Below, one piece after another: positions 42,393 to 45,733 of a DNA stretch of 64,000 nucleotides (position 1 is its first letter; each line of letters opens with the position of its first letter). Position numbers and translations under genes: made by a program. The stretch comes from Deltaproteobacteria bacterium (GTDB taxonomy: Bacteria; Desulfobacterota; Syntrophobacteria; Syntrophobacterales; Syntrophobacteraceae): NCBI GenBank assembly GCA_021813685.1, contig JAKAJS010000285.1:1-64000 (forward strand), written 5' to 3'. A model generated the notes under the pieces. That model searched no databases. It was not told the DNA's origin and was given only the letters and a program-made list of their open reading frames with translations.

Positions 42393-43082
42393 TCACGATT
42401 GTCGCGGCTGCATAATCGTCGCTTCCACGGGACAGACCGTCACGCAAAGCCCGCATCCATAACAGGCGGCTGCATCGTAGGCCATTTGACCGTCTCCCAG
42501 AGATCTGGCATCGAAGGGACATCGTTCGACACATTCGCCGCAATGGATGCACAAAGCGACATCCGTTACAGCGACGTACTCGGATCGGACCATAATATGC
42601 TTGCGGCCGTACGACTTTGCTATCTGCATGTCGTGGCAACAGCACGAACAGCAACTGCAAAGGGCGGCGAGTTCATGGTCGGGCATATAGAGACTCATGT
42701 GGACCAGCCCGCTTTCATTGGCTTTTTTCAAGACCCGGGCGGCTTCCGATAAGGATATGTAGCGCGCTTCGCCTTTTGCGACAAATCTGTCGCCAAACTC
42801 GTTGAGAAATAAACATACGTCCAATGGTTTGTCACAACGCCCGTAATGGGTCCTGCATCTGCAATTACTGAGCGCTACGGACCTTGCGTTCCGCAGCAGC
42901 TCCAACGCCTGGTCGGTAGGGAGGACCCACTGTTGGGCGTCAAGGGATTCGAAGACAGGAATTACTTTTGAAGAAAAGGATATCTGGCCCTTGCTCAGCC
43001 ACTGGTCGTACTTGGCGATATACGGTTCAAGGTAGGGATCCATGCTCTCCGTTCGATCCAGGCTCTCATCCTTCGTTTCCAT
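42393..43082 (-). CDS. Ferredoxin-type 4Fe-4S protein with unusual cysteine-rich N-terminal domain
   Basis: A 229-residue protein. The C-terminus carries two classical [4Fe-4S] motifs, CIHCGECVERCP and CYGCGLCVTVCP. The N-terminal ~150 residues contain CRCRTHYGRCDKPLDVC and a dense CSCCSCCCHD run, suggesting a further cluster or metal site. Homologues appear as '4Fe-4S binding protein' beside electron-transfer genes; function is unknown. A GAGGGGAAGAATTC segment precedes the chosen ATG. It lies downstream of two iron-sulfur flavoprotein genes on the same strand and is probably part of that ArsR-controlled unit, though the 106-bp gap leaves room for its own promoter. Confidence 0.85.
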   Translation of the reverse strand: METKDESLDRTESMDPYLEPYIAKYDQWLSKGQISFSSKVIPVFESLDAQQWVLPTDQALELLRNARSVALSNCRCRTHYGRCDKPLDVCLFLNEFGDRFVAKGEARYISLSEAARVLKKANESGLVHMSLYMPDHELAALCSCCSCCCHDMQIAKSYGRKHIMVRSEYVAVTDVALCIHCGECVERCPFDARSLGDGQMAYDAAACYGCGLCVTVCPVEATIMQPRQS

Positions 43083-43188
43083 GAATTCTTCCCCTCGGAC
43101 TCCCAAGTGATTACGCACATTTCTTCAGTCGGGCTGCCTAAGACGGCATTCTCTTGGTTGTTATTCGATTTCACCGTCCCTTGCAGGG

Positions 43189-43764
43189 TTAATTCGAACA
43201 CACATTCCGCGCGATCTCTTCGGCCTCTGCCAAAATATCCCCGTGAGTTTCTATCGCTCCGGAATCGCGTACTCCGCAAGCCCGGATAAGGTGGCTTTCG
43301 GCAAAACCGTACCATTTCAGGAAGTAATCGTACCTCGGGAAGATATCGCCGAATAACTCCTTGTCAGGATTGCCCTGTGTCAGTGCAAACACAAGCTTCT
43401 TGCCGGCAGAAAGGCGAACGGGATTGGGATTGGTCAGGTAATCGGGCTTCAGGAAAGAGTAAAAGCGGTCTATCGCCCCCTTCATTTGGCTCGATATTTC
43501 GCCAAAGTAAACGGGAGAAGCCATTACCAGTACGTCACACTCCTGCACGGCTTCCAGGACTTCCGCCAGATCGTCTTTCAATGCGCATTTATCAAGCTTT
43601 GTCTTGCATCCCATACAGGCCTGGCATCCCCGGTACTTAAGCTCATTTAAACGATAAGTCTTTGTTTGAACTCCTAATTCTTCAGCGGTATCGATAAACC
43701 GTTGCGCGATGGCAGAGCTGTTTGATTTGGCCCTCGGACTTCCAAGTAAGCAGACAATTTTCAT
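43189..43764 (-). CDS. Iron-sulfur flavoprotein / NADPH-dependent FMN reductase family protein
   Basis: A 191-residue flavodoxin-fold protein. The FMN phosphate loop is LLGSPRAKSNSSAIA, and ASPVYFGEISSQMKGAIDRF is the second flavin-binding segment. A compact cysteine motif CQACMGCKTKLDKC matches the Cx2Cx2Cx4-7C of archaeal/bacterial iron-sulfur flavoproteins (Isf), which pass electrons between ferredoxin and O2, H2O2 or other acceptors. GGAGG precedes the ATG. It is the second gene of a same-strand unit, 48 bp from the paralogous gene at 43813. Confidence 0.88.
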   Translation of the reverse strand: MKIVCLLGSPRAKSNSSAIAQRFIDTAEELGVQTKTYRLNELKYRGCQACMGCKTKLDKCALKDDLAEVLEAVQECDVLVMASPVYFGEISSQMKGAIDRFYSFLKPDYLTNPNPVRLSAGKKLVFALTQGNPDKELFGDIFPRYDYFLKWYGFAESHLIRACGVRDSGAIETHGDILAEAEEIARNVCSN

Positions 43765-43812
43765 CACTTTCCTCCATTTCGCAGCCGTCTGGTTAATCAT
43801 CGGTCATTTGGA

Positions 43813-44469
43813 TCACGAACCGCTTGCGGCGGCCGTCAGTTTCACGCCTAAATCGAAGGCGCGTTTGCAGTCAAGCGGGAAGATCTCCTCGTGTCGCTTC
43901 TTCTTCGCCTCCGCGTCCCAGCAGGTTGACAGGTATTTCGAGTAGTCGCTGAACTGGTAAGTGTCCGTACAGAGCAAAAGATCGCAGATCCCGAAGGTGT
44001 GGCCAAAAAGGTCCTGTGAGGCGGCGAAGGTTTTGTCATACTTACGGACGGCCAGGTCCTTTTCGGCGGTATTCATCGTATATATCAGTCCAACCTGGAG
44101 CTTGCCGGGAAATATGGGGGCATAACCGGGTGTGTAAGTCCGAAACGGAAATAGAAGCCGTTCCATAAACGACCTCATCTCCCCGGTTTCTGCGCCGAAG
44201 TATACCGGGGTTCCCAGGATGAGGACATCGGACTCCGACACTTTCTTCAAGATGGGCGCCAGGCCGTCCTTCACTGCGCACCGGCCATAGCTCCCGCCGC
44301 CTATTTCTTTACAGGCAAAGCAACTCCTGCAGCCCTTGGAGTCAACGTCGTAGAGATGTACCATTTCCGTTTCTGCACCATTTTTGGCGGCGCCTGCCAA
44401 GGCGTGCTCGATCAGGCTTGCGGTATTCCAATTCTTCCTGGGACTGCCATTAACTCCAATCGCTCTCAT
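43813..44469 (-). CDS. Iron-sulfur flavoprotein / NADPH-dependent FMN reductase family protein
   Basis: A 218-residue paralogue of the adjacent gene, with the flavin loop GVNGSPRKNWNTASLIEHAL, the cysteine motif CRSCFACKEIGGGSYGRC (wider last spacing) and GTPVYFGAETGEMRSFMERL. It is the first gene of the unit divergent from the ArsR regulator. A strong AAGGAGGAC ribosome site precedes the ATG. A perfect 43-bp palindrome lies 61 bp upstream, so expression is probably controlled by that regulator. The physiological substrate is unknown. Confidence 0.88.
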   Translation of the reverse strand: MRAIGVNGSPRKNWNTASLIEHALAGAAKNGAETEMVHLYDVDSKGCRSCFACKEIGGGSYGRCAVKDGLAPILKKVSESDVLILGTPVYFGAETGEMRSFMERLLFPFRTYTPGYAPIFPGKLQVGLIYTMNTAEKDLAVRKYDKTFAASQDLFGHTFGICDLLLCTDTYQFSDYSKYLSTCWDAEAKKKRHEEIFPLDCKRAFDLGVKLTAAASGS

Positions 44470-44529: not shown

Positions 44530-44572
44530 ACGGTTCGACTATTTTCGAACGGTTCGAAAATAGTCGAACCGT
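44530..44572. promoter_or_regulatory. Perfect 43-bp palindrome, candidate ArsR operator
   Basis: Positions 44530-44550 are the exact reverse complement of 44552-44572 around a single central G at 44551. The arm reads ACGGTTCGACTATTTTCGAA plus C. Each arm itself contains TTCGAC/TTCGAA half-sites. It lies between the divergent flavoprotein and ArsR genes and abuts the predicted ArsR promoter, the expected place for a repressor site. Confidence 0.85.
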
Positions 44573-44573
44573 A

Positions 44574-44602
44574 TTGCGCGGTCAAGCATTTTTTTGTATA
44601 CT
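44574..44602 (+). promoter_or_regulatory. Predicted promoter of the ArsR gene
   Basis: TTGCGC at 44574-44579 and TATACT at 44597-44602 are spaced by 17 bp, starting 2 bp after the palindrome and 22 bp upstream of the ATG. A repressor bound to the palindrome would occlude this -35. Confidence 0.5.
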
Positions 44603-44623: not shown

Positions 44624-44968
44624 ATGGTAGCGCAATGTATCGAACATGAGCAGCCGTCCCGCGACAGGATCGCTCTTCCCAAAGTGCTTCACGCGCTAAG
44701 CGACCCGGTACGGTTGGAGATAGTGCTCAAACTCGCCAATGCAGGTGAAGTCACGTGCGGGTGTTTCGGTTTGGCCATGCCCAAGTCTTCCTTATCCCAC
44801 CATTTCAAGGTTTTGAGGAATTCAGGCGTAGTCGCCACAAGGCGTGAAGGCAAGGAGTGGGTCAACAGCCTGCGAAGAGAGGATCTCGACGCATTGTTTC
44901 CGGGAGTCCTCGAGTCGGTCATCGCCGCGGCGCGCGCGGAACAGCAATTGGAGTCCCGGCGCAGATAG
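44624..44968 (+). CDS. ArsR-family winged-helix regulator
   Basis: A 114-residue ArsR/SmtB-type repressor. The HTH is VTCGCFGLAMPKSSLSHHFK followed by VLRNSGVVATRREGKEWVN, with LHALSDPVRLEIVLKL at the start. The CGC in the helix before the HTH could sense metal or redox state, but there is no classical CxC-plus-distal-Cys arsenic site. Its operator is probably the 43-bp palindrome upstream, giving control of itself and of the divergent iron-sulfur flavoproteins. Related regulators sit beside FMN reductases in other genomes. Confidence 0.9.
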   Translation: MVAQCIEHEQPSRDRIALPKVLHALSDPVRLEIVLKLANAGEVTCGCFGLAMPKSSLSHHFKVLRNSGVVATRREGKEWVNSLRREDLDALFPGVLESVIAAARAEQQLESRRR

Positions 44969-45539: not shown

Positions 45540-45733
45540 GGAGCCTCTTGCAACCAGTGCGAAGACCGGGAGGGGCGGGGCAGATTCCCCCCTTTTTTTA
45601 AGGGGGGCAAAGGGGGATTTGAATTCTCTGCACACGCCTAAGGGCGCAAAATCCCCCTCGATTCCCCTTTTAAAAAGGGGGAAGAAGAAAGCACCGCTCG
45701 TGCCTGTCCACAGGCAGTTTTGCAAGAGGGTCC
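45540..45733. mobile_element. MITE-like element with 14-bp terminal inverted repeats
   Basis: Termini GGAGCCTCTTGCAA (45540-45553) and TTGCAAGAGGGTCC (45720-45733) are inverted repeats with one mismatch. Inside are nested palindromes: CCCCCCTTTTTTTAAGGGGGG, CAAAGGGGGATTT opposite AAATCCCCCTCG, and CCCCTTTTAAAAAGGGG. It encodes no protein. At 194 bp it fits a non-autonomous miniature transposable element. The rest of the 345-bp interval to the next gene is AT-rich with no gene. Confidence 0.75.

Follow-up and report, generated by a model that had tools for sequence, protein, structure and literature searches.

A perfect 43-bp palindrome as putative double operator between a RexT-like ArsR-family regulator and iron-sulfur-flavoprotein-like genes

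What purpose could a perfect 43-bp palindrome serve between the divergent genes of an ArsR-family regulator (44624-44968, plus strand) and a flavoprotein (43813-44469, minus strand)? The question arises in the window analysed here, i.e. the whole stretch of 64,000 nucleotides from a Deltaproteobacteria bacterium of the Syntrophobacteraceae. An earlier note had proposed an unusually large binding site for several regulator dimers within a redox- or metal-responsive regulon. Based on inspection of the locus and comparisons to related loci, we propose that the palindrome is a double operator through which a thiol-based peroxide sensor represses itself and its neighbours.

Palindrome and operator pair

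Positions 44530-44572 form an exact 21-1-21 inverted repeat, with arm ACGGTTCGACTATTTTCGAAC, a central G and arm GTTCGAAAATAGTCGAACCGT, confirming the 21 perfect pairs around a single base that had been described. Perfect inverted repeats with arms of at least 11 bp and a loop of at most 10 do not occur elsewhere in the 64-kb window. Arms of this length have an expectation of ~3e-7 from composition, and when the 154-bp intergenic region was shuffled 2000 times under a first-order Markov model, the longest arm was 11 bp. In the 5.06-Mb genome, TTCGACTATTTTCGAA occurs exactly only at this locus, ruling out the dispersed repeat that the earlier note had named as grounds for refutation.

The palindrome consists of two inverted copies of an 18-bp putative operator, GTTCGA-N6-TCGAAC, placed 19 bp apart. 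Site 1 (GTTCGACTATTTTCGAAC, 44533-44550, plus strand) is located at about the predicted start of flavoprotein transcription, while the minus-strand core of site 2 (GTTCGAAAATAGTCGAAC, 44552-44569, minus strand) contains the -10 hexamer of the same gene. Each copy has the size of an ordinary ArsR operator, with half-sites 11 bp apart, equivalent to one helical turn. The palindrome is best explained as a double operator of the adjacent ArsR-family protein with more than one dimer site. The earlier idea of several dimers survives in this form, with two ordinary 18-bp operators in place of an oversized, nested one.

All other flavoprotein-partnered loci examined likewise have an operator pair, spaced 23-24 bp, at this position 5' of the regulator ortholog. 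These loci belong to the window's genus (L043/L014, L044/L015 and L016), to Geobacter, Geomonas, Geomesophilobacter, Geotalea and Desulfuromonadales/Deltaproteobacteria (L045-L050 and L075), and to two further genomes of the phylum (L112 and L113); L113 is apparently the same locus as L047, with identical intergenic letters, which slightly lowers the number of independent loci. Site 2 of L043 and of L112 departs from the motif at one of its ten fixed letters. More distant relatives in Bacillus, Azohydromonas, Caldimonas and Bryobacterales have a single TTCGA-N6-TCGAA-like site 5' of the regulator, as do Roseomonas-type loci, there with one mismatch. In a Nocardia relative (L079, 2854-2911), two CTTCGA-N6-TCGAAG sites precede the regulator 42 bp apart.

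The pair is thus conserved, whereas only the window genome combines perfect symmetry with a spacing of 19 bp. Complete pairing of the six core bases between both sites is limited to the window and Geotalea (L075), compared to one to four of six in the other 9 of 11 loci, and the outer flanks in Geotalea agree at 11 of 15 positions versus 2-8 elsewhere. The Geotalea toluenoxydans regulator (L075, 3001-3302) is frameshifted in the draft assembly, with an intact operator pair and perfectly symmetric 18-bp cores. It is known that imperfect inverted repeats can become perfect, or closer to perfect, through template switching during replication (PMC7202029). The perfect symmetry is most likely a lineage-specific accident, i.e. 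the correction of an earlier imperfect palindrome by such a switch, which would fit the window and Geotalea alike, two examples that were picked after being seen. In congeners the spacing is five bases longer; compared to them, one site in the window is rotated against the other by about half a turn of the helix, and fixed contacts between the dimers are therefore probably not essential.

The RexT-like regulator

The regulator has 114 amino acids. It matches HTH_5 at 32.3 bits (cut-off 22), and profile and fold agree on an ArsR/SmtB-type winged helix-turn-helix. The best match in the PDB is RexT (7txm, E 6e-30; next 4e-6), to which 53 of 95 residues are identical (56%) in an ungapped alignment. 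A fold search with the AlphaFold model (mean pLDDT 86) returned six RexT chains at the top, at E 4e-11 to 1e-10, the next match being at 1e-4. By sequence and by modelled fold, the closest solved relative is RexT and not an arsenic- or metal-type sensor. Further 3' of the gene, at 45585-45690, the window has C-rich and G-rich inverted stretches (CCCCCTTTTTTTAAGGGGGG ... CCCCTTTTAAAAAGGGGG) that resemble a dispersed repeat.

In RexT, Cys41, Arg61, Thr68 and Asn77 are needed for H2O2 consumption, and Arg26 and Lys50 for DNA binding (PMC8960804; PMC13421787). The former correspond to C45, R65, T72 and N81 of the window regulator, and the latter to R30 and K54. C45 is invariant in 21 of 21 aligned sequences, and T72 is replaced by serine in Geobacterales and L044. 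The position of the resolving Cys40 of RexT is occupied by T44 in the window and by alanine or serine in orthologs. The only cysteines of the regulator are at positions 5, 45 and 47, and C47 is alanine in all aligned Geobacterales orthologs, in which operator and target are still present. With T44 at the Cys40 position and alanine for C47 in Geobacterales, the disulfide chemistry cannot be identical to that of RexT. Resolution of oxidised C45 may instead occur via another thiol, or the sulfenic acid may be stable; in the window's genus C47 could substitute for Cys40. Absence of this cysteine has parallels, as 20 of 105 thioredoxin-linked RexT sequences also lack Cys40, and homologs without it, as well as CyeR, share the RexT sequence cluster (PMC8960804). 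The same study describes the peroxide pocket as unlike that of other ArsR-SmtB members, and the vicinal disulfide as a feature of Nostocales (PMC8960804).

Promoters, target genes and distribution

Consensus matches and conservation were used to predict the promoters. On the minus strand, the flavoprotein gene has a predicted -35 element TTGACC at 44580-44585 and a -10 element TATTTT at 44557-44562, inside operator 2. The pattern TTGAC(A/C/G)-17 bp-hexamer, with the -10 (mostly TATTTT) within operator 2, is found in 11 of 11 aligned loci, the window included. For the regulator, promoter scan and alignment place a -35 element TTGCGC at 44574-44579 and a -10 element TATACT at 44597-44602 on the plus strand. 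A TTGCNN-17 bp-TATAAT-like arrangement that starts five bases past the 16-bp core of operator 2 is present in 9 of 11 loci; in the remaining two the best regulator-promoter match of the scan is off by one base. The palindrome does not touch the regulator -35, as had been assumed, ending one base short of it (44574). Bound to operator 2, a dimer would mask the flavoprotein -10 and encroach on the regulator -35; bound to operator 1, it would be placed at the predicted start of flavoprotein transcription. Such an arrangement is expected of a protein that represses both genes.

The first gene on the minus strand (43813-44469) encodes a flavodoxin-fold protein resembling iron-sulfur flavoproteins (Isf), with a CX2CX2CX10C motif. 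Twelve bp 3' of it follows a second such protein (43189-43800, minus strand; CX2CX2CX6C), likely in the same operon, and 70 bp further downstream a protein with a C-terminal 4Fe-4S dicluster ferredoxin domain (42393-43118, minus strand), possibly in it as well; a three-gene operon is the likely arrangement. Both flavoproteins match flavodoxin-fold Pfam families. The usual Isf cysteine motif is CX2CX2CX4-7C; the ten-residue interval of the first protein is kept in all its aligned orthologs. All double-site loci encode a divergent flavoprotein (identity 49-78%, one match being partial), which constitutes the conserved target. The matches of the second flavoprotein at other loci are orthologs of the first, and the ferredoxin-like protein has no match among the other loci compared. 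Of the two flavoproteins and the ferredoxin that the earlier note had placed downstream of the palindrome, all are adjacent here, but only the first belongs to the conserved module. Downstream of the regulator in congeners (L043, 3411-4280; L016, 2135-3028), we note an epoxyqueuosine-reductase-like iron-sulfur protein, not seen there in the window.

A genome search suggested in the earlier note did not yield a wider regulon. The genome holds 12 other TTCGA-N6-TCGAA places, 11 of which overlap a coding-looking open reading frame. The lone intergenic one (G000:C84:18917) was dropped, as look-alike letters in two congeners fall inside guaB-like and ksgA-like genes. Regulon is, hence, probably too large a word for the targets of this operator.

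The cassette has a patchy distribution. Within the genus, 4 of 11 genomes carry it, as do, at E <=1e-20, 3 of 395 genomes in a sample of the phylum, the window's own being counted in both. The closest copy, L112, is from another family of the phylum (regulator 81-82%, flavoprotein 78% identical to the window), compared to 72-77% and 70-73%, respectively, for the congeners, which suggests horizontal transfer of the cassette.

Proposed mechanism, alternatives and known systems

Starting from the computed operator pair and its conservation, the promoter layout, the RexT relationship and the conserved residues, we propose the following mechanism. One repressor dimer would bind each 18-bp GTTCGA-N6-TCGAAC site, and the reduced repressor on both operators would shut the flavoprotein operon and its own gene. 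H2O2, or a similar thiol oxidant, would then oxidise C45, which is part of the DNA-binding domain and shares a pocket with R65, T72 and N81. The oxidised repressor would leave the DNA, allowing production of the Isf-like flavoprotein and, in turn, removal of the oxidant or repair of its effects. Cruz and Ferry reportedly described an interaction of Isf with O2 and H2O2 in 2006 (cited in PMC4338226), and by analogy a role of the flavoprotein in oxidant removal appears reasonable. We assign a probability of roughly 0.7 to a RexT/CyeR-type thiol peroxide sensor that represses itself and an Isf-like flavoprotein operon via a double operator. A more far-reaching version is tentative: a peroxidatic ArsR switch of anaerobe lineages that dispenses with the vicinal disulfide of Nostoc, using a Cys-Arg-Thr/Ser-Asn pocket that needs only one cysteine or relies on another partner, and controlling an iron-sulfur flavoprotein that detoxifies H2O2 or O2.

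The same operator and autorepression could also serve an electrophile or quinone signal, where C45 is alkylated and the compound reduced by the flavoprotein. An old yellow enzyme is the target of CyeR, which belongs to the same sequence cluster (PMC8960804), and on reading, the divergently encoded peptide at Azohydromonas/Roseomonas-type loci resembles old yellow enzyme, while that at Bacillus loci resembles an antibiotic-biosynthesis-type monooxygenase. However, the window regulator retains the full peroxide pocket of RexT (C45, R65, T72 and N81), whereas the Bacillus relatives lack its threonine and asparagine and may sense something else; we therefore regard this signal as unlikely for the window. 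Sensing of a metal or arsenite by thiolates, with C45-G46-C47 as a CXC site by the DNA-binding helix, would come as a considerable surprise. The regulator does contain the motif and just exceeds the cut-off of the NCBIfam metalloregulator ArsR/SmtB subfamily model (56.1 vs 55 bits), but it scores far under the cut-offs of specific metal-sensor models, and metal-binding cysteines are not conserved, given the alanine for C47 in Geobacterales. Moreover, RexT, its structural match, is reported to bind no metal ions (PMC13421787), and no arsB, acr3 or arsC was noticed on reading the open reading frames around the locus. Of the redox or metal response envisaged earlier, the RexT relationship thus favours the redox part and metal sensing is disfavoured; the remark that the locus does not obviously concern arsenic resistance agrees with the operator and RexT evidence, which favours redox control of iron-sulfur-flavoprotein-like genes.

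Finally, the palindrome might act as a structure, i.e. an RNA hairpin, a cruciform or the remnant of a mobile element. Its single strand folds strongly (z -7.7), yet the operator letters persist in the 9 of 11 loci with incomplete core pairing, other exact copies are absent from the genome, and, given the predicted starts, no transcript would include more than about half of the palindrome. An RNA element or terminator was rejected on the grounds of this transcript content and of the poorly conserved hairpin, and we give a structural role in general hardly any credence.

The peroxide-sensing repressor that we favour would place a RexT pocket lacking the partner cysteine in anaerobe lineages, together with a defined operator, promoter layout and conserved flavoprotein target. 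The module hence offers a ready test of peroxide sensing by ArsR proteins that lack a vicinal cysteine pair, and is a candidate oxidant defence of Geobacter-type bacteria. No description of a Geobacter/Syntrophobacter module was found in the literature with the terms used; the parts are of known kinds, and their combination is apparently undescribed.

RexT of Nostoc/Anabaena sp. PCC 7120 (7txm; PMC8960804) is the nearest solved structure, with 56% identity over 95 amino acids, and all four H2O2-activating and both tested DNA-contact residues are present in the window regulator. The RexT operator, ATTCG-N15-CGAAT, shares the half-site letters TTCG/CGAA (PMC8960804; PMC13421787), but has N15 between ATTCG and CGAAT, compared to N6 between TTCGA and TCGAA in paired sites here. 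In addition, RexT has the vicinal Cys40 where the window regulator has T44, and controls thioredoxin in Nostoc, whereas the module of anaerobe lineages comprises a divergent flavoprotein and no adjacent thioredoxin gene. CyeR of Corynebacterium glutamicum (PMC8960804), compared by description, is likewise an ArsR-family thiol redox regulator of the RexT cluster, with a cysteine at the Cys41 position and a flavoenzyme target; this target is, however, an old yellow enzyme, and the second CyeR cysteine, seven residues away, is absent in the window regulator. As judged from sequence, the window flavoproteins appear to share the flavodoxin-like fold and a compact cysteine motif with Isf, although CX2CX2CX10C of the first exceeds the usual motif. 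The ArsR-ArsH system of Paracoccus denitrificans differs by the arsenite-binding C-terminal cysteines of its regulator, by overlapping ATCAA-N6-TTGAT operators and by its ars operon context, but it similarly combines a diamide-responsive ArsR repressor, a flavodoxin-like reductase target and two operator sites (PMC9137774).
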